Positions 1,911 through 14,915 of a DNA stretch of 45,726 nt are shown in pieces. Below the pieces are notes generated by a model. It searched no databases. It had not been told where the DNA came from and saw only the letters and a program-made list of their open reading frames with translations. The stretch lies in the IMG/VR virus record IMGVR_UViG_3300007276_000084, positions 1-45,726 of that record, one strand, 5' to 3'. The stretch's first letter is position 1; every line of letters begins with the position of its first letter. Source of the stretch: a virus. Both the position numbers and the translations under genes were made by a program.

Positions 1911-3401
1911 ATGATACAAAACGTAAAAAAATACATTGCTGAAAGACTAAGAGATGAAGACCTTTATGCTAAGGTTTTAGACATGTTACAAGCTATTTTA
2001 GACGATTCTGAGATTGGCTATAACGATATTATACAAAAGTATAACGATCCTTCACAGCTTGATCCTGAAGCTACAAGAGCAATATTAGAAGAACTTGGTT
2101 ACTCATATATTGCAGATATTTTTTCATTGTTTGAATCTCAAGACCTAGTACAATTAATTAAATACATGAACTTCATATCACTAATGAAGGGACACAGAGA
2201 TGGACTAGAAACTGTTTTTCAATTTCTAGGTTTAGACTTTGAAATAACTGAATGGTGGGAATACCAAGAAGGTAAAGATGTAAGTTATGGCGATTCAGGT
2301 TTAACGCCAATTGGTTATGTCACAAAAACGTATTACAACCTAGATGTTGATCAGGGTTTAGTTTCAGTTCAAAATAATAAGTTTAGTGATATCTCAGAGG
2401 GTACAGTTTGTTTCTGGTATAGGTTCAACATAGCTACTGAAACACCTCAAATAGATTATATCTTATCAGAAGGTTCACTTGTAAGCCGATATATAGCTGT
2501 TTTACCAAATGGTGATCTAGAATTACTAGGTGGTGCGAGTGAAACAGTAACCGGATTGGGGTTACAAGATGGTGAATATCACTGTGTTTGTGTTACTTTT
2601 CAAGGTGACTACGCAAGAAAGGTTTTCGTTGATGGTACGGAATACACTTTAAATAACACGGTATATCAATTAAGACCATATAAATTTTGTATGACACTTG
2701 ATGGTGATGCAGGTCAAGGTGCAATTGGATTATTAGCACAATTAAACATTTATGAAGATGTTTTTGATTTAACGGATCACTTAGAATATTTCAATAGTGG
2801 TGTTCCGATAAATCCTTCAACACACAATAAAGGTGATAGCCTACAAATAAATTTTACATTTGGTGATAACCTTTTTGACAACGAATTATATTTAGGTGCT
2901 ACTACTTTTAACGATAATGTAAGTGGTGAAAAGCTAAGTATTTATGACGAATCAGGTCAACCTGTAACATCAACATTAAAATCAATTGCTGTAATTGGAC
3001 AAGAAGTTTCTTTCTTAATTCCACATGAATGGAAAATGACAATTGATTTATTAGCTTCAGCATATACAGTAGACATAGCTAAGTCAGCTGAATCGTTAGT
3101 GGAATTTACTAGAAATTACGTTTATCCTGTTTTAAAGTGGTTAGATTTAATTTATGAAGCGGATTTTACACCTTTTCAGTTACAAGCTCATACAGTAGGT
3201 GATAAAATACATCGATTTGAATTTTCAACGCTTTTTAAAACTTTGACAATAAAATCGGCTGTGGATAAGAGGATTCAGTTTAATTCTGATCAAGATTCAC
3301 TTGATAATCCGACTTTATTCGATAATAATTTAAAACAAGAAACGAATTATGAATTTTATACAGAAGACAATGCTTTTTATATAAAACTAGAGGATGCGTA
3401 A
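1911..3401 (+). CDS. Tail protein I-like baseplate protein with LamG-like insert
   Basis: 496 aa. The first ~120 residues include LMKGHRDGLETVFQFLGLDF followed by ITEWWE, the pattern of P2 gpI-type baseplate proteins (kGt..gi...l..lg....i.eWWe). From about residue 145 to 300 a concanavalin/LamG-like domain follows (GTVCFWYRF, DGEYHCVCVTF, KVFVDG, and a closing QLNIYEDVFD). The C-terminus has another fibre-like segment. It starts just after the gp6/J-like gene and its stop overlaps the next start (TAATG), so the genes are translationally coupled. A glycan-binding insert in gpI is not standard and probably decorates the baseplate. The gpI call is by motif only. Confidence 0.6.
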   Translation: MIQNVKKYIAERLRDEDLYAKVLDMLQAILDDSEIGYNDIIQKYNDPSQLDPEATRAILEELGYSYIADIFSLFESQDLVQLIKYMNFISLMKGHRDGLETVFQFLGLDFEITEWWEYQEGKDVSYGDSGLTPIGYVTKTYYNLDVDQGLVSVQNNKFSDISEGTVCFWYRFNIATETPQIDYILSEGSLVSRYIAVLPNGDLELLGGASETVTGLGLQDGEYHCVCVTFQGDYARKVFVDGTEYTLNNTVYQLRPYKFCMTLDGDAGQGAIGLLAQLNIYEDVFDLTDHLEYFNSGVPINPSTHNKGDSLQINFTFGDNLFDNELYLGATTFNDNVSGEKLSIYDESGQPVTSTLKSIAVIGQEVSFLIPHEWKMTIDLLASAYTVDIAKSAESLVEFTRNYVYPVLKWLDLIYEADFTPFQLQAHTVGDKIHRFEFSTLFKTLTIKSAVDKRIQFNSDQDSLDNPTLFDNNLKQETNYEFYTEDNAFYIKLEDA

Positions 3402-4293: not shown

Positions 4294-5238
4294 ATGGCCG
4301 GAATAAATACATTAATTTTAAATCAGGGTATTGGTAAAGCAATTGATGCTCAAAATAACTCAGGCTTTTTCATAAAGATAACTTCTTTTGGAATATCAGA
4401 AACTGCAGGTGCTTTCGATAAAGATAGAAACTCAGGTAATTTGCTGTGGTTTAAAACACTTGTAACAAATACAATAAAAATAGATGATAATACGATTGAA
4501 TTAACTTGTGTTGTTCCTCCAAATGCTATTGATAGACAAACAAATTTACCAGTTATAGGGCCAAGAAATATTGGTGAAGTATACATTTATGGTGAAGATG
4601 AAAACGTTGATGAATTTATATTTGCTTTAGGTCAACCTGAATTTTCAGAAACATATGATCCACAAGGTTCGTATGAGATGCGTATACAATTAAAACTATT
4701 AAACGTAACGGTTGATAGTGTATATAGATTCTCTTACACACAAGCGCAAGAGATAGGTTTACATGATGAAAGCCCTATAGCTCACGGTGATTTATTTTGG
4801 AACATGTTAACTGAAACAGAAAGTTTTGAAGCTATAAAAAATAGAGTACATCTAGTAAGACATGCACCTTCCGAATCACTTGTAGAAGTAACACTTCCTG
4901 CACCTGAAGTTGGTAAAAAAGTATGTATAAAAGACGGTGTTGGTGATGTTGTAGGTAAAAGAATAAGACTATTACCTAATGATGGTGAACTAATAGATCA
5001 ATACGGTGCTGCAGGTTACTATTTTAAATACCCTTATGAATCAAAAACTCTAATGAGTGATGGTACAGATTGGTTCTTTGTTTGGTCTGATAATCAAGAC
5101 GCTTCATCTAAAGGTATTGTAAATTTAGGTGATCCAAATACTGTAGGTTCATGGAGATTAAAAGTTGATGGTGGTAGATTACATATACAAAAATCTACTG
5201 GACTTGGTGTTTTTGAAGATAAAGATATTTTAGAATAG
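4294..5238 (+). CDS. Tail fibre protein with P2 gpH/tail-collar-fibre-like N-terminus
   Basis: 314 aa, SD AAGGGAATAGG upstream. Residues 1-150 (NSGFFIKITSFGISETAG, VVPPNAIDRQTNLPV, IGEVYIYGEDE) are clearly paralogous to the N-terminus of the 734-aa fibre gene at 7821. They resemble the N-terminal domain that anchors P2 gpH-type fibres to the baseplate. The rest is a short beta-rich fibre domain (VTLPAPEVGKKVCIKDGVGD, then MSDGTDWFFVWS), a pattern common in phage fibre shafts and tips. Three unrelated genes now separate it from its paralogue. It may be a short fibre or an alternative adhesin. Confidence 0.65.
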   Translation: MAGINTLILNQGIGKAIDAQNNSGFFIKITSFGISETAGAFDKDRNSGNLLWFKTLVTNTIKIDDNTIELTCVVPPNAIDRQTNLPVIGPRNIGEVYIYGEDENVDEFIFALGQPEFSETYDPQGSYEMRIQLKLLNVTVDSVYRFSYTQAQEIGLHDESPIAHGDLFWNMLTETESFEAIKNRVHLVRHAPSESLVEVTLPAPEVGKKVCIKDGVGDVVGKRIRLLPNDGELIDQYGAAGYYFKYPYESKTLMSDGTDWFFVWSDNQDASSKGIVNLGDPNTVGSWRLKVDGGRLHIQKSTGLGVFEDKDILE

Positions 5239-5246
5239 GAAAAAAT

Positions 5247-6785
5247 ATGAAACTAATTAATTTAATATTACTATTTATTTTAGCTTCTTGTAGTAGAAGT
5301 ATAATTGATACGACTCTAAAATTAGGTACAGGCGTTCCTGCTAATACTGTAATTGAGAGTAGTCAAGGACTAGCAAACAACCCTAAGATAATGTACGACT
5401 TTAGTTTAAGTAAATGGCGACTAACAACGGACGGTATTAATTTTACTGATATAGCTACAAGTAATGATGGTGTTGTAGACCTTTTAAGTAATCAATCTAT
5501 TGCAGGTATAAAAACCTTCACAGGTCAATTAGTTGTAACAAGTACAGTAAATGGGTCACACCCTGCACCTTCTATGTTACAAGCAGAAATCAATTTAATT
5601 ACAGGACAAGAAGTAGGTGACTTAGTTTTTAATACAAATACATCGGAATTAAATTTTTGGGATGGTTCTGAATGGGCCGGAATAGGAAGCGGAGGGGGAG
5701 GAATTGAGCTACTAACAAAAGGTGCTTTGATAACTTCCGATGGTGTAACTAATGGTGAATTTACTTGTTTGGATAATGAAATACTAGTATGGGATGCAGC
5801 GGAAGCCGCAGGAGTTAAATGCGTAACTAATAACAGTAATATAGTTCCCTTACTTTCTAACGGACAATTACTAGTAGGTAATGGAGTTTCAAGTTCAACA
5901 TTCTCATGTCCACAAAATGAAATATTAGTTTGGGATTCGACAGGAACAAATGGTTTTAGATGTGATCCCTTGCCAGTTATTACAAATTTAACTGTGGCTA
6001 AAGGTTCCTTATTAACAGGAACAGGTTCAGTTCAAACATTATTTAATGGTTGTGCTGATGGTGAGATAATCGAGTGGGACTCTTTCACAGCTAATGGGTT
6101 TAAATGTATTACAACTCCAGTAGGTGGGGGAGGAGGAGGAACAGGCGATGTTCTACTTGATTTCTTCAGACATACAGAAGATGTTACTCATGTAACAAAT
6201 GGTACAGACGTTGAATTTGCATTTATAAAAACATATACAGTTACAGCGGGGGCAAGATTAAAACTAACATGCTCTTATAGTTACACAACGGTTTCATCTT
6301 TTGATAGTAATGTAACAACTACAAATATTTGTTACGAAGGTTATAAAAGAACCCAAGTAAACCCTAATATGCGATTTTCAATGGAGGCCAGTGCAAGTAA
6401 TCAAGCGTATTACTTAAATACTGACTTCAATGAAATAAATACTTTTTTTGATTTTTTTAGTTCAAAAAAGACTATTCCAACAGACCTTATGGGTGGTACG
6501 GATCCGGTAAGTTATGATGTGGGTGCAAATACACCTGATGATATATATTCGGGACAGGAATTTGCAGGAGATAATACTACATGGTGTACCTATGCTTTTA
6601 AAGATAGTGGTACTGCTATTGCGCACTTTAGAGACACAGACAGCAACGGTTCTATAGCATTAAATACTGAACTTATAACAGGTTCGGTAGGTGTACCTAG
6701 TGGTTATACTTTTAATCAAATTAGAACTAAAATGCAGATGATATGTCAGGTACATGAAGTTAATAGTACAATTATTGATTTATAA
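5247..6785 (+). CDS. Phage-encoded lipoprotein with repeated C-x17-C modules
   Basis: 512 aa. It starts with an evident lipoprotein signal (MKLINLILLFILASC, lipobox LASC, Cys15), so the product should be exported and lipidated in a Gram-negative envelope. After fibre-like segments (SIAGIKTFTG; GDLVFNTNTSELNFWDG) come three repeats of the form kG.LltsnG.....f.C..nEI.vWDs....GfkC. Their cysteine pairs are C174/C192, C221/C239 and C269/C287, each exactly 18 apart. A glycine-rich linker leads to a C-terminal domain with more cysteines. The next gene carries a fourth copy. It sits among tail genes but is unlikely to be an ordinary cytoplasmic virion part; receptor masking or host surface modification is inference. 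Confidence 0.6.
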   Translation: MKLINLILLFILASCSRSIIDTTLKLGTGVPANTVIESSQGLANNPKIMYDFSLSKWRLTTDGINFTDIATSNDGVVDLLSNQSIAGIKTFTGQLVVTSTVNGSHPAPSMLQAEINLITGQEVGDLVFNTNTSELNFWDGSEWAGIGSGGGGIELLTKGALITSDGVTNGEFTCLDNEILVWDAAEAAGVKCVTNNSNIVPLLSNGQLLVGNGVSSSTFSCPQNEILVWDSTGTNGFRCDPLPVITNLTVAKGSLLTGTGSVQTLFNGCADGEIIEWDSFTANGFKCITTPVGGGGGGTGDVLLDFFRHTEDVTHVTNGTDVEFAFIKTYTVTAGARLKLTCSYSYTTVSSFDSNVTTTNICYEGYKRTQVNPNMRFSMEASASNQAYYLNTDFNEINTFFDFFSSKKTIPTDLMGGTDPVSYDVGANTPDDIYSGQEFAGDNTTWCTYAFKDSGTAIAHFRDTDSNGSIALNTELITGSVGVPSGYTFNQIRTKMQMICQVHEVNSTIIDL

Positions 6786-6798
6786 TATAAGGAATAAT

Positions 6799-7500
6799 AT
6801 GAAAATTGTAATAGTTTTATTTTTATTAGGTTTTACAGTAAAGGCTTTTTCGGCTTTTAACCCTATTATAACACTACCTGTTAGTGGGGGTTCTATAACA
6901 GTTAAAGGTGGCTTAATTACTAGTAACGGTACAACTCAAATCCCATTTTTACCTTGTGCAAATGATGAAATAATTGTTTGGGATTCAGCTGAAACGGCAG
7001 GTTTTAAATGTGAAGCAAAACCGATAGGTGGAGGTGGTGCAAGTATAAATCAGGTTATTAATCAAACCGCTACCTTCAATACTTTTGCTGGGAATGTAGA
7101 TGATATAACTCCTACGGTTGTTACATTAACACACCTTACAACATCTTTTACAACAACTAGTACTAATCCTGTTTTTATTACTATTCCTAACTACATATTA
7201 GCTATAGCTTATTCATCTACAGGTGGTGTAGAAACAGACTATGTTGGTGGTCCTTCTATTAGTATATATCGAGATGGGACACTTATAGCTAAAAAAATAG
7301 TTGGGGCTAGAAATACTAGGACTCTAGCTAATGGTGTATATTCTGCTAACGCTGATGTAGGTGTTTTTATGGATAATAGTGTAGTATCAGGTACAACTTA
7401 CGTTTACTCCGTGGAGCTATCTACGGGAGGATATGGTAGACTGTCCTTCACATCTTCAGTAACAGGTGTAAACCAAGCACTTGTATTACAGCAATATTAA
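6799..7500 (+). CDS. Secreted protein with one C-x17-C module
   Basis: 233 aa from the ATG at 6799, preceded by TATAAGGAATAAT; an upstream in-frame ATG at 6754 lies inside the previous gene and has no SD. The N-terminus (MKIVIVLFLLGFTVKAFSAF) is a classic signal peptide with a likely cut after AFSA and no lipobox cysteine. Residues 37-72 hold one repeat shared with the lipoprotein upstream (KGGLITSNG, then C53...NDEIIVWD...GFKC71, again 18 apart). The C-terminal part is beta-rich (ISIYRDGTLIAKK) and may be a small jelly-roll or tip domain. It probably partners the lipoprotein in the periplasm or at the surface; function unknown. Confidence 0.55.
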   Translation: MKIVIVLFLLGFTVKAFSAFNPIITLPVSGGSITVKGGLITSNGTTQIPFLPCANDEIIVWDSAETAGFKCEAKPIGGGGASINQVINQTATFNTFAGNVDDITPTVVTLTHLTTSFTTTSTNPVFITIPNYILAIAYSSTGGVETDYVGGPSISIYRDGTLIAKKIVGARNTRTLANGVYSANADVGVFMDNSVVSGTTYVYSVELSTGGYGRLSFTSSVTGVNQALVLQQY

Positions 7501-7511
7501 TAAGGTGAATA

Positions 7512-7811
7512 ATGAAAGTAAAACATGTAAAAAATTCAATAATATCTAAGATTTTAAAAGTTGAAGCTATTACTATTTATCCCTTCATTTTCTACTCTTA
7601 TAAGTTCCCTAGTAAGGAATTGATGCAACACGAAATGATTCATATAGATCAGGTTAGAAAATTAGGTTGGTTTAGATTTTACTTCAATTACTTATTAGAA
7701 TATATTATGCTTTATAAGAAATATAGAAATCAATCAATAGCGTATTTTAATATTAGTTATGAAAAAGAAGCTTACGCAAAACAACATATAGAAAGAAAAG
7801 ACTTTAGTTAA
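7512..7811 (+). CDS. Small HExxH protein, putative zinc metalloprotease
   Basis: 99 aa, SD AAGGTGAATA. It carries H40-E-M-I-H44 in LMQHEMIHIDQ and a downstream YEKEAYA with E86, a plausible third zinc ligand, the pattern of small gluzincin-like peptidases. The stretch FRFYFNYLLEYIML between them is hydrophobic and may lie at a membrane or in the protease core. No signal peptide is evident. It follows two exported proteins and precedes a fibre gene, so it could act on one of those products or on host envelope proteins. Activity and target are inference. Confidence 0.45.
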   Translation: MKVKHVKNSIISKILKVEAITIYPFIFYSYKFPSKELMQHEMIHIDQVRKLGWFRFYFNYLLEYIMLYKKYRNQSIAYFNISYEKEAYAKQHIERKDFS

Positions 7812-7820
7812 GGATATAAA

Positions 7821-10025
7821 ATGGCAAGTACAGTAAACTCAGTAATAACGAACTCAGGTGTTGAAGAATCAATACTGGCCCAAGCTGAACAAGGTTTTTT
7901 TATACGAATATCTTCTTTTGGTGTATCAGAAACTTCAGGTGTTTTAGATGTAACAAGAACTACATCAAACTCCGAGTGGTTTAAATCTTTAATTTCAAGT
8001 GCTGTAAAAGTTGATGCAAACACGGTTCAAATTAACTGTAATATACCTCCTAATGCAATTGACGCAATAACTACTTTACCAGTATCAGGTGTAAAAAGTG
8101 CAGCTGAAATTTATATTTACGCATTTGATGAAAATGATGTTGAATATCTTTTTGCAATTGGCCAACCGGATATAACAGAGCTTTATTCACCTGCAGCCTC
8201 TTTAACACTAAGATTTTCTTTTAGAATTATAAATACTTCAGTAGATAATATTTATCAATTTTTATATACTCAAGCTAATGAAATAAATGATCACAATAAT
8301 GACTTTAATGCTCACCCCCATCTTCAAGAAAACCTTGAACGATTTGGTATTTATGATCAATTTCTTGAAAGATCTTATAACGGTCAATTAATAGATAATT
8401 TTCCTGCAACAGAAGATGTTGATGATAACAACGCTGTTTATCTTGATACTATAAATAATATATATAGACAGGCTTTATTTGATGGTACAGAAAAAGAAAT
8501 AGCTGTAGGTGTTTACTCAGATAAAAGAAAAACGGTTGTTTTCAGAGGTATAATAGACTTTAATCATACTTCTGATCCATACACAAATTTATATTTAAGC
8601 CCTTCTGTTTTAGGTGGTATCAGTGAATCAGCTACAGATATATTAATTGGTTACGCACTTCCAAACAACAGAATAATGGTAACACCCCAAGATATTAGAA
8701 AAAGAGTTGGAGCTAGTGGTGGTGGTAGTGCTTCTTTTGAAGTTAGTCAATCGAATCACGGATTCCAATTATTAGAAGGTATTTATTTTGATGGTGGTAA
8801 TCCCGATCCTTTTGAAAGAAATTGGAAGGGAGCTAAAGCAGACAGTGAATTAACTTTAGCAACACACTTAGTAACTGGATTCAGTGAAACACTTCCAAAT
8901 GTTTTTACAGCTACAAAATTTGGACGTGACATATACCCTAATCCATTACCAAAATATCAAGGTGAATACTATTATCTTTCTCCTTTTTATGGTGTTGATT
9001 TAGAGATACTAAGTATAGCACCTTCAGCGGTTACAATCTCAGGTTTTCCTGCAGTAACACTTGTAGGTAATACAACGGAAGAAAGAGCAGAAAATTTAGC
9101 TGTATCTTTTGCAAATTTAAGTTCGAATTTTAGAGCAACAGCTTTGGGTTCTTTAGTTCATCTTGAAGTTGATTCTGAATTATTTGTAATTGTAACAGAT
9201 CCTTCAATAATAACTCAGTCTTCATCACAAACTAGAAAAGGATATGCAACTCCTATAGCACCTACGGAAGGTTATGATAACCCTTTATTTTATGTAGAAA
9301 GTAGAACAGCTATTCATACAATGCTTCACAGGCCAACAGGTTTAGGTGGTGCAGGACAATCAACTAGTGGTATTGGTGAGATTGAACGATGGCCTTCAGG
9401 TTCAAATCCATATGGTTTACTTCCTTGTGATGGAACTGTTAGAACTATACTAGGTTATGAAAAGTTATATGAAATTTTAGGTACAGACTATAATACAGGT
9501 GGTGAATTAGTTGATGAATTTAGACTACCTTTAATTCCAACAGAAACTATTGGTACAGGTGACTATGATTATTATATTAGACACACTATGCGAGCAACAT
9601 ATGAAAGTGATCTAACTACACTTAGAAAAAACCCATTATTTCCTTTTGGAGAAGCAGGTGCACCTACAGGACCATCTTTTGTTTGTGCTGAAACATATAC
9701 GTTCTTTAAAACTCAAGTGAGTATAACTACAAACTTAAATATACAAAAACTAAGGCCGGGCCGTAAGTTTTCACTTGCTATTAAATCACAAGCGGCTTCA
9801 ACGGTGTCTTTAGTTATTACACCTGAAACAGATTACGAAGGTATTTCAGGAATAACAATTTTAGGTATTCCTTCAGAAGGTGGTATTAGTAACCCAGTTG
9901 CAGGAACATCAACATATACAGTTTTATTTGATCCAAGTGAAGACAAAAAAATAGATTTTGAATGTCAAAAATTCGGTAATGTAATGTATATTTATGTTAG
10001 AACTAGTGATGGTTGGAGTGAATAA
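7821..10025 (+). CDS. Large tail fibre with gpH-like N-terminus and tail-collar domain
   Basis: 734 aa, SD AAGGATATAAA. The N-terminus (GFFIRISSFGVSETSGV, NIPPNAIDAITTLPV, AEIYIYAFDEND) is paralogous to the fibre gene at 4294. Around residues 510-560 there is a phage tail-collar-like domain (IGEIERWPSG, GLLPCDGTVRTILGYEKLYE, then FRLPLI), typical near the tips of T4 gp12 and related short fibres. The remaining C-terminus is beta-rich. The stop overlaps the next start (GAATAATGG). It is likely the main receptor-binding fibre of this window, with the three small downstream genes as its tip or decorations. Confidence 0.7.
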   Translation: MASTVNSVITNSGVEESILAQAEQGFFIRISSFGVSETSGVLDVTRTTSNSEWFKSLISSAVKVDANTVQINCNIPPNAIDAITTLPVSGVKSAAEIYIYAFDENDVEYLFAIGQPDITELYSPAASLTLRFSFRIINTSVDNIYQFLYTQANEINDHNNDFNAHPHLQENLERFGIYDQFLERSYNGQLIDNFPATEDVDDNNAVYLDTINNIYRQALFDGTEKEIAVGVYSDKRKTVVFRGIIDFNHTSDPYTNLYLSPSVLGGISESATDILIGYALPNNRIMVTPQDIRKRVGASGGGSASFEVSQSNHGFQLLEGIYFDGGNPDPFERNWKGAKADSELTLATHLVTGFSETLPNVFTATKFGRDIYPNPLPKYQGEYYYLSPFYGVDLEILSIAPSAVTISGFPAVTLVGNTTEERAENLAVSFANLSSNFRATALGSLVHLEVDSELFVIVTDPSIITQSSSQTRKGYATPIAPTEGYDNPLFYVESRTAIHTMLHRPTGLGGAGQSTSGIGEIERWPSGSNPYGLLPCDGTVRTILGYEKLYEILGTDYNTGGELVDEFRLPLIPTETIGTGDYDYYIRHTMRATYESDLTTLRKNPLFPFGEAGAPTGPSFVCAETYTFFKTQVSITTNLNIQKLRPGRKFSLAIKSQAASTVSLVITPETDYEGISGITILGIPSEGGISNPVAGTSTYTVLFDPSEDKKIDFECQKFGNVMYIYVRTSDGWSE

Positions 10026-11535: not shown

Positions 11536-11832
11536 ATGGAATTAGAACAAATGTCTTTTGCTATTGAATCAATGTTTCCGGGCATACGAGGTGGTAGTGA
11601 TTATTTACTTCAAGCTTCAGTTGATAATGTAACAGGTGAACAACTAGCAGATGCAACTATTTTTATGTGGGATTTACCAATCAAGCAACCAACTCAAGAA
11701 CAAATTGAAGACTTCTTTTTACAGGTTAAAGATGAATATGATAAAGCAAATAATCTGCAAGAAAATGAAGATGATGAAGTAACTAGAAAGCAAAAAGTAA
11801 TAGATAGTTTTCTTGGTAAGTATGGCAACTAG
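11536..11832 (+). CDS. Hypothetical protein, possibly tail/fibre assembly chaperone-like
   Basis: 98 aa from ATG 11536, with SD AAGGAGAG a few bases upstream; an in-frame GTG at 11530 lies within the SD itself. ATIFMWDLPIKQPTQEQIED resembles the end of small phage proteins of the fibre-assembly kind (W....P.PT.eqi), followed by an acidic, probably helical C-terminus. The stop lies inside the next gene, which starts 11 bases before it. The chaperone idea rests on a weak motif and on position. Confidence 0.4.
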   Translation: MELEQMSFAIESMFPGIRGGSDYLLQASVDNVTGEQLADATIFMWDLPIKQPTQEQIEDFFLQVKDEYDKANNLQENEDDEVTRKQKVIDSFLGKYGN

Positions 11833-12463
11833 GATAACACCTAGTATAATCGAAGAGTTCTCACATACAAAAAATAATATAGAACTTTTAGATAAGTATG
11901 GGTTATTATATATAGATTTGGATTTATCAGAACTAGATAAACAATTATATTATAGACGTTTATTTTCTGAAAAATTTACATTTTCGAGTTCAATTATTTC
12001 TAGGAATGAAAGAAATCACAATCTATCTCATTTTTTTGAAGATCAAAAATTATTGGAAAAATGGTCATTATTTAAAAAAATAAGAGAAGTAGTAGAGTCT
12101 CTAAACTTCCGAGTGGTTTTAGAAAAAGCTCATGCTAATTTACATAACTTCTCTTCTGAATCATCACATCATGTAGATTTTACATCACCTTCAACCGTTT
12201 ATTATGCTAATCCAGAGTGGAATCCAGAGTGGGGAGGAGAAACTTGGTTAATGGATGATAATCATGAAGTAATAGACTCTGTAAGATTTTCACCTGCAAG
12301 ATTGGTTATATTTAATGGTAATAGGCCACATTACGCAAGACCTTGCACTCACTATGCTAAAGGTTTAAACCGCCTAGTATTAGCAAGCAGATTTAAGTTT
12401 ATAGATGAACAAGGCAACGAGCAATATCAATATCCTGAAAAGGAGTTTAAATTTGTTAATTAA
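11822..12463 (+). CDS. 2-oxoglutarate/Fe(II)-dependent oxygenase-like protein 1
   Basis: 213 aa from ATG 11822 (a TTG at 11813 is less likely). It has the metal-binding HxD of the double-stranded beta-helix fold (HHVDF, H117 and D119), the family loop NPEWNPEWGGETWLMDD, a distal His in NRPHYARP (H170) and a candidate 2OG-binding Arg in GLNRLVLASRFKF. Such proteins hydroxylate proteins, nucleic acids or small molecules with Fe(II), O2 and 2-oxoglutarate. It is the first of three consecutive oxygenase-like genes inside the tail-gene region. The substrate is unknown; modification of a fibre or of host surface material is possible. Confidence 0.65.
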   Translation: MATRITPSIIEEFSHTKNNIELLDKYGLLYIDLDLSELDKQLYYRRLFSEKFTFSSSIISRNERNHNLSHFFEDQKLLEKWSLFKKIREVVESLNFRVVLEKAHANLHNFSSESSHHVDFTSPSTVYYANPEWNPEWGGETWLMDDNHEVIDSVRFSPARLVIFNGNRPHYARPCTHYAKGLNRLVLASRFKFIDEQGNEQYQYPEKEFKFVN

Positions 12464-13037
12464 TGACTATGAAGATTTAAAAAATAATCCAAAAGTTGTA
12501 GACGGTTTATTCAATACTATTGATGTGGCCATGATACATAGAAGCTTAAAAACTTTTTCTTATAAGCAGGGGCATAAATCTAAAGTTGATCAAGAAGACT
12601 ATGAAACGTCTTTTGTTCACTACTACGATAATGAAGAAGTTAAGAAAATGAATTTTTATATCAAAATACAAGCGTATCTTAGGGATGAACTTAATTATAA
12701 AGTAAGTTTAGAAAAGTGTTATGTTCATTCATATGGTATGGATCAAAAAACAAAAACTCATACAGATAGTACAACACCAACAGTTATGCTTTATTGTAAT
12801 CCAAATTGGCAACCTAATTGGGGTGGTGAAACTATCATATATGATATAGATAACGAAATTAAAAAAACTATTATACCCAAGTCGGGAAGGGTTCTTATAT
12901 TTGATGGTAATACAATGCACAGCGGTAGGAGTACTACAATTGGTGCACCTGATAGAAGATACGCAATTGTCTTTAAGTTCTTTTTCTTAGATGATAATAA
13001 TAACGTTCAACATGCGAGAAATGAGTTTATAAAATGA
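12453..13037 (+). CDS. 2-oxoglutarate/Fe(II)-dependent oxygenase-like protein 2
   Basis: 194 aa. I place the start at TTG 12453, seven bases after AGGAG (12441-12445); an in-frame ATG at 12405 has no SD and lies 58 bases inside the previous gene. The core matches gene 1: THTDSTTPTVMLYCNPNW with HxD at H103/D105, QPNWGGETIIYD, MHSGRS with distal H156, and DRRYAIVFKFFF with the candidate 2OG-binding Arg. It is a diverged paralogue of its upstream neighbour. The next gene starts in an ATGA overlap. Confidence 0.63.
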   Translation: MLINDYEDLKNNPKVVDGLFNTIDVAMIHRSLKTFSYKQGHKSKVDQEDYETSFVHYYDNEEVKKMNFYIKIQAYLRDELNYKVSLEKCYVHSYGMDQKTKTHTDSTTPTVMLYCNPNWQPNWGGETIIYDIDNEIKKTIIPKSGRVLIFDGNTMHSGRSTTIGAPDRRYAIVFKFFFLDDNNNVQHARNEFIK

Positions 13038-13558
13038 AACAAGAAATACTAGATGATTCACATGAAATAAATATTTCTAAAATACCTGATTTTTTGAGCG
13101 ATAATCTAATGTCGGAATTAAAAGAGGTTATAAGCTACATTGAATCAAGTGATGACCCTATGTTTAAAGATAATCGATTTGATGGTAGGAAAATGACTGT
13201 AGATCCTCAAATCTTAAAAAAAATTCAGTTTTTATACCAAGAAAAAGCTGAAGAAGTATTTGGGATAAAACTTAAACCAAGCTTTACTATACTCGCTATG
13301 TACTCGGAAAAAGGTAATATGTACGATCATTATGACCGTGATATGTGCAAATATATGATAAACATATCAATAGACAGCAATTGTGAGTGGGGATTAAAAA
13401 TAAATGACAAGATATATAATTTAAACAATAATGAAGCAATATTTATGAGTGGGACTTATCATCAACATGGAAGAGTTGGTGAGTTAAATAAAGGCCAATT
13501 TGTACATAATGTCTTTATATATTATGTTGAAGAAGACTTTAGTGGCCCACTTTGGTAG
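13034..13558 (+). CDS. 2-oxoglutarate/Fe(II)-dependent oxygenase-like protein 3
   Basis: 174 aa, ATGA overlap with the previous gene. YDHYDRDMCKYMINISID has an HxD (H99-Y-D101), and GTYHQHGR supplies the distal His (H143 or H145), so the iron triad is plausible. It lacks the NW.GGE loop of the two upstream genes and belongs to another branch, closer to the prolyl-4-hydroxylase/procollagen-hydroxylase type. I could not place the 2OG-binding Arg/Lys with certainty. It ends the transcription block before a promoter-like site. Confidence 0.55.
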   Translation: MKQEILDDSHEINISKIPDFLSDNLMSELKEVISYIESSDDPMFKDNRFDGRKMTVDPQILKKIQFLYQEKAEEVFGIKLKPSFTILAMYSEKGNMYDHYDRDMCKYMINISIDSNCEWGLKINDKIYNLNNNEAIFMSGTYHQHGRVGELNKGQFVHNVFIYYVEEDFSGPLW

Positions 13559-13625: not shown

Positions 13626-14915
13626 ATGACTATTATAGTAAAACCAAGCATTATTCGTAAAGGTGATTTAAACCAACTCGAATTAGATCAAGAACAATTA
13701 TTATTACACCCAGTAGTGGCAGCTAATGAGTACTATAGCAATACTAAGAGATGGCGATTTATAATGTTGACTTACGTAACTGTTCCTAATGGTAACGTTG
13801 CAAAGGTTGTTTTTGATCCCAACGATGATTTTATAACTGCAGTAGCACCCGATCCTGTTGTTTTTGGTGATTTTACACCTTCTGAATTTGCTGAAAATGA
13901 CTTTCAAATACGGATGCTTTCAATCTACGGTTTTGATAATTCATCTTTAGATGTTTATAGATCTGATTTAGATACTGTAGAATTTGATATATTATTAACA
14001 GACTCTTACGGTTTTTACTCATACAGGTTACTTCCACTTCAGGGTGCACTTCAACTTGGTGGGGGTACGATTCAAACCCATCTAACTACTTCAATGTGGT
14101 ATAAATATGATACTACACAAACATTAGGTGCAAAAAATTACTTAATGAGTATTGGTTACGGTTTAAATAGTGGTGATGCAGAAGTTTATCTTGATGCATC
14201 GGGATTTCTGTACCTAGCCGCTCATACTGGTGGTAGTTTTTCAATAGAATTAGTGAATGGTGTTAATATAGATGATGGTAACTGGCATAGTTTAATTCTA
14301 AGTTACTCAGGTGCAATAGCAACAGGTGGTTACGAAGAATGTCGTTTATTCATAGATGGTGTAAAAGAGCAAGAAATACTAGGATTAAATGAAGTAGCTG
14401 TAAATAATGTTTATGTAGCTAATCCTACGGCCAATGAATTAACACCTTTAGACCAAGGTTGTAGAGGTTCAATAGCTCAATTTGAAGTTTGGGGTGAGTA
14501 CTTTGATACTTCTCAAGCTGTTCAATACCATAATAATGGATCGGTTTTAAATCCTAATCTTCATATATTTGCTTCAGCTCTTCTGAATGACTGGACTTTT
14601 GGTGATAACGAACTGGATGATGGTCTAATTGTAGCTGATAATAAGGGTGTTTTTGACCTCACTATACTTGAAGCTCAAGGTACACCTTCTCCTTTTAGAT
14701 CAGGAAGTACGGAACCCATTTGGCAAACGTTAGATCAGGCACTTACAGAAGATTTAGATATAGTTTGGGATAATATAGACGATGATGCTACTAACCCACC
14801 TATTTGGACAGCTAACGCAGTTTATGATGTTGGAGATATCGTTTCTCCAAGTGTACCAAATGGTAAGTTGTACGTTATGGCTAACCAGAACAGAATTAGA
14901 CTAGATCAACCGTAA
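13626..14915 (+). CDS. Fibre/adhesin with shared N-terminal module, LamG domain and truncated binding repeat
   Basis: 429 aa, SD AAGGGATATAAG. Residues 1-120 (KPSIIRKGDLNQLELDQ..., then ADEYYS-like ANEYYSNTKRW, and FDNSSLDVYRSDLD) form a module also found at the starts of the genes at 18455 and 45605. A LamG/concanavalin-like domain follows (INIDDGNWHSLILSYSG-like core, RLFIDG, IAQFEVWGEYFD). The C-terminus has the EPIW...IVW...PPIWTANAVYDVGDIV pattern of the repeats in the baseplate gene at window start. It stops inside a unit, right after LDQP where the homologues continue with W. It is probably an adhesin or decoration protein. Confidence 0.6.
   Translation: MTIIVKPSIIRKGDLNQLELDQEQLLLHPVVAANEYYSNTKRWRFIMLTYVTVPNGNVAKVVFDPNDDFITAVAPDPVVFGDFTPSEFAENDFQIRMLSIYGFDNSSLDVYRSDLDTVEFDILLTDSYGFYSYRLLPLQGALQLGGGTIQTHLTTSMWYKYDTTQTLGAKNYLMSIGYGLNSGDAEVYLDASGFLYLAAHTGGSFSIELVNGVNIDDGNWHSLILSYSGAIATGGYEECRLFIDGVKEQEILGLNEVAVNNVYVANPTANELTPLDQGCRGSIAQFEVWGEYFDTSQAVQYHNNGSVLNPNLHIFASALLNDWTFGDNELDDGLIVADNKGVFDLTILEAQGTPSPFRSGSTEPIWQTLDQALTEDLDIVWDNIDDDATNPPIWTANAVYDVGDIVSPSVPNGKLYVMANQNRIRLDQP

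Follow-up and report, generated by a model that had tools for sequence, protein, structure and literature searches.

Putatively exported, fibre-like phage proteins with a cysteine-bearing variant of the tail-fibre repeat

Tail-fibre modules normally fold in the cytoplasm and are retained on the virion. In the window, which is the whole of IMG/VR record IMGVR_UViG_3300007276_000084 (45,726 nt), two adjacent genes in the tail region encode fibre-like products that begin with predicted export signals. The window has a G+C content of 33 %, and no end repeats were found in the record. Tail, fibre and decoration genes occupy the plus strand from 683 to about 19,300, and the minus strand from about 20,700 onwards carries replication genes for the most part. 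The features of the block are listed in Table 1.

Table 1 Features of the exported-protein block and of the genes beside it, in window positions
Feature	Position	Strand	Basis or detail
Cytosolic tail-fibre-type gene	4294..5238	+	Directly upstream of the lipoprotein gene
Exported fibre-like lipoprotein (putative), 512 aa, three C-x17-C repeats	5247..6785	+	ORF, lipobox LASC followed by Ser
Predicted lipoprotein signal peptide MKLINLILLFILAS	5247..5288	+	Sequence
Predicted lipidated Cys codon, Ser next	5289-5291	+	Sequence
Cys repeat 1	5718..5828	+	Cys codons 5766, 5820
Cys repeat 2	5859..5969	+	Cys codons 5907, 5961
Cys repeat 3	6000..6113	+	Cys codons 6051, 6105
Gly-rich linker GGGGGGTG, 3' of the repeats	6123..6146	+	Sequence
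Orphan C-terminal region of lipoprotein, presumed tip	6147..6782	+	Cys 342, 362, 447, 500
Secreted protein (putative), 233 aa from ATG 6799	6799..7500	+	AAGG ribosome-binding site, signal peptide
Predicted signal peptide MKIVIVLFLLGFTVKAFSA of secreted protein	6799..6855	+	A-x-A cleavage site, between MKIVIVLFLLGFTVKAFSA and Phe
Cys repeat 4	6904..7014	+	Cys codons 6955, 7009
Orphan C-terminal region of secreted protein	7030..7497	+	Strand-rich in a model of pLDDT 33, not reliable
Small putative protease, HExxH (HEMIHIDQ)	7512..7811	+	phrog_15610, E=2.6e-16
Cytosolic tail-fibre gene, Phage Tail Collar domain	7821..10025	+	PF07484, E=1.5e-8

Gene order and export signals

Between the two cytosolic fibre genes the order is lipoprotein, secreted protein and HExxH protease. 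The N-terminal 168 aa of the flanking fibre proteins are 45 % identical, and these two proteins probably use the same baseplate attachment. Intergenic gaps in the block are 8 to 13 bp, the lipoprotein gene starting 8 bp past the tail-fibre gene, no terminator-like sites were found between the window genes on the plus strand, and promoter-like sites were no more frequent in the window than in shuffles. Gaps of this size make the block look like a part of the tail operon, and its tight spacing there suggests that the exported pair is expressed late. The likely true start of the secreted protein is the ATG at 6799, which has AAGG upstream; the annotated longer ORF begins at 6754, and a start there would lengthen the N-terminus and overlap the upstream gene. 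The 99-aa phrog_15610 protein encoded at 7512-7811, adjoining the pair, could process or release both proteins. Elsewhere in the window, a P2 gpI-type baseplate protein with a Laminin_G_3 lectin-like domain is encoded at 1911-3401, and the stretch covering that domain is present again in gene 13626-14915; two adjacent 2OG-Fe(II) oxygenase homologues (11813-13558, mutual identity 27 %) are followed by a gene whose PHROG match bears the label ferrochelatase.

Export was called by a heuristic combining hydropathy and cleavage motif, not by SignalP. Used on controls, it picked out lambda Lom and the T7 spanin but none of the P2 and T4 tail-fibre genes. The lipoprotein begins with MKLINLILLFILASC followed by Ser, a class II lipobox with predicted cleavage before Cys15, and no transmembrane segment was found downstream of the lipobox. 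Under the +2 rule of E. coli, Ser after the lipidated Cys directs sorting to the outer membrane. The preliminary description had read export signals in both genes, a LASC lipobox in one and an AFSA signal peptide in the other, and the heuristic bore this out. Its view that signal peptides are unusual within a tail-fibre region also stands for the most part, lambda lom being a known exception.

The cysteine repeat and its relatives

Four repeats with cysteines 18 residues apart had been proposed, three in the lipoprotein and one in the secreted protein. The residues were confirmed at 174/192, 221/239 and 269/287 of the lipoprotein (spacing 18 each) and at 68/86 of the long ORF of the secreted protein, its single pair. 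When the DNA pattern C-x3-[EQ]-hyd-hyd-x-W-D-x5-G-x-x-C was searched, four matches were obtained in the window and none in 100 shuffles. A Gly-rich linker shorter than that of Table 1, GSGGGG, lies immediately ahead of repeat 1 of the lipoprotein. The four non-repeat cysteines of the mature lipoprotein are all in its C-terminal region, for a total of ten. Searches of Pfam, PHROG and the PDB with this C-terminal region (6147..6782) gave no match, nor did a search of cultured phages and plasmids with the lipoprotein or PDB searches with the full lipoprotein and secreted protein, and no close relatives of the C-terminal region of the secreted protein (7030..7497) were found.

A search with the Cys-repeat consensus gave its best match, at E=1, to the distal long tail fibre of Vibrio phages. 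The plain phage tail-fibre repeat reads KGDLLvGt..RLaVGsNgQVLtADSatAtGvKWa; with a plain-repeat consensus as query, matches to this form were obtained in 71 phage records, and the form is located in annotated tail-fibre or tail proteins. A plain profile was built from eight units taken from phage records, and it aligned with the Cys profile without gaps over 36 columns, with an hhalign probability of about 96 % and P of about 5e-9 to 8e-9. Against the Cys HMM the best plain unit scored 22 bits and the best of 1600 shuffles 9.3 bits, the weakest three plain units falling below that shuffle. Length and register are the same as in the plain repeats of the long tail fibre distal subunit of Vibrio phage SRILMA, Myrna gp112 and Microcystis phage MaMV-CH02, and both forms have the KG-L start, the N-x-[QE]-[IV]-L core, D-S and the G-[FVL]-K end. 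In the Cys form the conserved Trp near the end is replaced by Cys (in 8 of 8 units), Cys also stands for an upstream apolar residue, and Trp takes the place of A in tADS, so that the Cys pair is present in all eight Cys-form units and in none of the eight plain units. These comparisons make the Cys repeat an ungapped variant, with added cysteines, of a tail-fibre repeat that is common in phages. PDB matches to the repeat, Pizza propellers and WD40 strands, were chance only.

True repeats were found by the IMG/VR pattern scan in only two other contigs, G001 (IMGVR_UViG_3300033148_002226), which its tape-measure gene marks as siphovirus-like, and G002 (IMGVR_UViG_3300033153_003319), which is podovirus-like as judged by gene content. 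The total comes to eight units, carried by five proteins from three phages, and each of the two contigs has 2 to 3 consecutive signal-peptide genes 3' of tail/fibre genes. Beyond the cassette, the window phage and G001 share one short match, a 36-residue fibre or decoration stretch; no match was found between the window phage and G002 outside the exported proteins; and G001 and G002 have in common an amidase and one small gene of the lysis region. Since almost nothing else is shared, the cassette has moved horizontally between unrelated phages, most simply ones meeting in the same host group.

Among GTDB representative genomes, an alignment scan for the repeat gave nothing, and an exact-pattern scan gave six matches, which were judged to be chance because the profile recognised no significant repeat in any of them; a host origin of the repeat was rejected on this basis. 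A relaxed Cys pattern yielded two additional matches, both spurious, and attempts to widen the family through the AGFTEFP motif that follows the signal peptide led, past G001 and G002, to chance matches or cytosolic proteins. IMG/VR searches with the whole lipoprotein, the secreted protein and the neighbouring baseplate protein returned no close relatives. A weak likeness (BLAST E=0.012) exists between the second and third signal-peptide proteins in the cassettes of G001 and G002 (L003:8462-8968 and L012:2886-3461), whose C-terminal part is apparently helical. The G001 contig also encodes, remote from its tail genes, a further Ser/Gly-rich lipoprotein with an LVSC lipobox (L025:3930-4451).

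The cultured Bdellovibrio phage phi1422 (NC_019525) likewise has signal-peptide proteins in its tail-fibre region, gp68 (614 aa, L031:1430-3274), encoded 1 bp 3' of the tail-fibre gene gp67, and gp75 (L031:5299-5811), encoded near gp68; both are annotated merely as hypothetical. In phi1422, as in the window phage, G001 and G002, signal-peptide genes abut tail/fibre genes. By the heuristic, a signal peptide is present in 5/5 Cys-form proteins and in 0/7 sampled plain-form proteins (Fisher P=0.001, for five proteins that are not phylogenetically independent), and the Cys form, unlike the plain tail-fibre repeat, is confined to signal-peptide proteins. In nine exported proteins, gp68 and gp75 included, the mature Cys counts are 10, 2, 10, 5, 4, 10, 4, 8 and 2, an even number in eight (P=0.02). 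The window pair accounts for 10 and 2 of these, with Cys contents of 2.0 % and 0.9 %, and the Cys content of the neighbouring tail and structural genes of the window is 0.46 %. This enrichment, together with the even parity, fits disulfides, and each repeat is probably disulfide-stapled. AlphaFold models of both window proteins had a pLDDT of about 33, and the weak hairpin that they contain per repeat is no evidence.

The combination of export with paired cysteines put forward in the preliminary description is therefore strengthened by the relatives, the Cys form occurring solely in signal-peptide proteins. Searches for the repeat in phage and bacterial sequences, among the checks that it had suggested, added the two IMG/VR contigs and, from GTDB, chance matches only. 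The idea of a surface module is well supported as regards export and paired cysteines but not as a new domain, since the match to the fibre repeat makes the module fibre-derived. The infected cell probably directs both proteins to its own envelope rather than solely into progeny particles. The recurrence of the cassette in unrelated phages had been missed.

Possible roles of the exported pair

The explanation that we tentatively prefer is late receptor masking at the host envelope, in which the fibre-like pair would block re-adsorption of progeny and superinfection. Two genes for tail-fibre modules would have been given Sec signal peptides, and their products would be exported to the host envelope late in infection, one lipid-anchored and the other free. 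In the oxidising periplasm, or outside, a disulfide would staple each repeat unit, and the C-terminal tips would bind the host-surface ligand of the virion or one close to it. With this ligand occupied as the cell lyses, progeny would be kept off the debris and the same cell would not be superinfected. There is precedent in the Llp protein of T5, an exported lipoprotein with a disulfide that blocks re-adsorption (PMC9586334). The tail-operon spacing, in suggesting late expression, speaks against a purely early role of the T5 Llp type; a pair appearing late could protect progeny and not exclude early superinfection. No homology was detectable between the tips and the virion fibres of the phage itself, which runs counter to a simple decoy model.

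An unlikely alternative is that the phage infects a Bdellovibrio-like host and supplies it with surface fibre adhesins that alter prey attachment or the handling of the infected predator or bdelloplast. A predatory host is plausible by analogy with the MAT proteins of B. bacteriovorus, which resemble phage fibres, carry a signal peptide and swappable tips and are exported and displayed by the cell (PMC10769870). The gp68 and gp75 proteins of phi1422 point the same way: like the window pair they are exported, contain Cys and lie in the tail-fibre region, and no signal-peptide calls were made in the tail-fibre region of the published structural relatives of phi1422, phages 56, CP-T1, ZF40 and phiPLPE of Aeromonas, Vibrio, Pectobacterium and Iodobacter (PMC3391216). 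The calls in these four phages lie elsewhere, mostly in small or lysis-type genes, and one of 64 aa at the extreme end of phage 56 corresponds to no annotated gene. Against this, the Cys repeat is absent from phi1422 and its exported proteins have no significant similarity to those of the window, which makes the likeness a parallel and not homology, and a protein of the lytic stage would bring little lasting gain to a predator. A similarity of gp75 to a G002 exported protein, noted by eye, was dropped because it had no BLAST support. In a bolder version, which we consider doubtful, a cassette of exported, disulfide-stapled fibre proteins would be exchanged horizontally among unrelated phages of Bdellovibrio-like predators, would correspond on the phage side to the MAT adhesins of the predator and perhaps be their source, and would alter the surface binding of the infected predator.

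It is also rather unlikely that the pair represents virion fibres matured outside the cytoplasm, which would be exported, folded with disulfides and joined to the baseplate when the envelope breaks at lysis. The pair does contain fibre repeats, shows the gene spacing found throughout the tail operon and lies between two baseplate-type fibre genes with similar N-termini, but neither exported protein has the N-terminal domain common to those flanking fibres, and a lipid-anchored copy would remain in the membrane. To our knowledge, no tailed phage adds fibres from the periplasm.

Moron-type surface proteins, which would act in lysogenic conversion or in contacts of the phage with mucus, biofilm or prey as a third party and not in phage adsorption, are improbable. 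Lambda lom, which encodes an exported protein of the outer membrane, is placed comparably between J and the side-tail-fibre genes, and the presence of the cassette in three unrelated phages would suit a moron, but the genes have the spacing of the tail operon and not that of a moron with its own expression. On inspection of the window ORFs, in a record that may be incomplete, neither an integrase nor a repressor was noticed, and a Pfam search with the lipoprotein and the secreted protein gave no match, Ail/Lom included. That the export signals are false, the hydrophobic fibre N-termini inserting in the virion and the cysteines being incidental, is very improbable, since the signals, although called by a heuristic, have a textbook n-h-c structure with a lipobox or A-x-A site and follow the Cys form rather than the plain form, with Cys enrichment and even parity.

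Comparison with known systems

A parallel outside phages is the MAT superfamily of Bdellovibrio bacteriovorus, with which the window pair shares a signal peptide (called by the heuristic in the window pair), a fibre-like mosaic, variable C-terminal tips and phage-fibre ancestry (PMC10769870); the window proteins differ in being phage-encoded and shorter. MAT proteins have a conserved beta-rich domain of ~130 aa directly after the signal peptide, the members are trimeric fibres, and 13 of 21 end in an S74 peptidase tip (PMC10769870). The S74 domain (PF13884) is absent from the window record, which is compatible with MAT membership because members without S74 exist. A clean switch, in which a Trp and an apolar residue become a Cys pair and a signal peptide is added, would show the conversion of fibre modules to exported surface proteins, a step that is also implied by the phage-fibre-like MAT adhesins of predatory bacteria. 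The interest of the finding would climb steeply if the host were a Bdellovibrio-like predator.

Among phage proteins, T5 Llp resembles the window lipoprotein in being a phage lipoprotein, and it has a disulfide and blocks the phage receptor (PMC9586334). Of the window genes, one of the two has the lipobox of the Llp and Cor lipoproteins. Llp is small, is produced early and targets FhuA on its periplasmic side, whereas the window lipoprotein has 512 aa and fibre repeats and lies in the tail operon, from which its timing is inferred; the analogy is functional only. An outer-membrane spanin, a small lipoprotein whose partner is an inner-membrane spanin of the same lysis cassette, differs from the window lipoprotein in size and in position, the latter being flanked by fibre genes. 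Lambda Lom is, like the predicted products of the window pair, exported and encoded between tail-fibre genes, but it is an annotated outer-membrane protein without a fibre repeat, and the Ail_Lom outer-membrane beta-barrel domain of Pfam was matched by neither window protein. The PblA and PblB proteins of streptococcal prophages are likewise phage tail-type proteins that serve as surface adhesins; they reach the surface through phage lysis and not by a signal peptide. Phage fibre modules and exported phage proteins are thus known in kind, and their combination here is new, giving a candidate class of phage proteins, exported late, that may keep progeny from being re-adsorbed.
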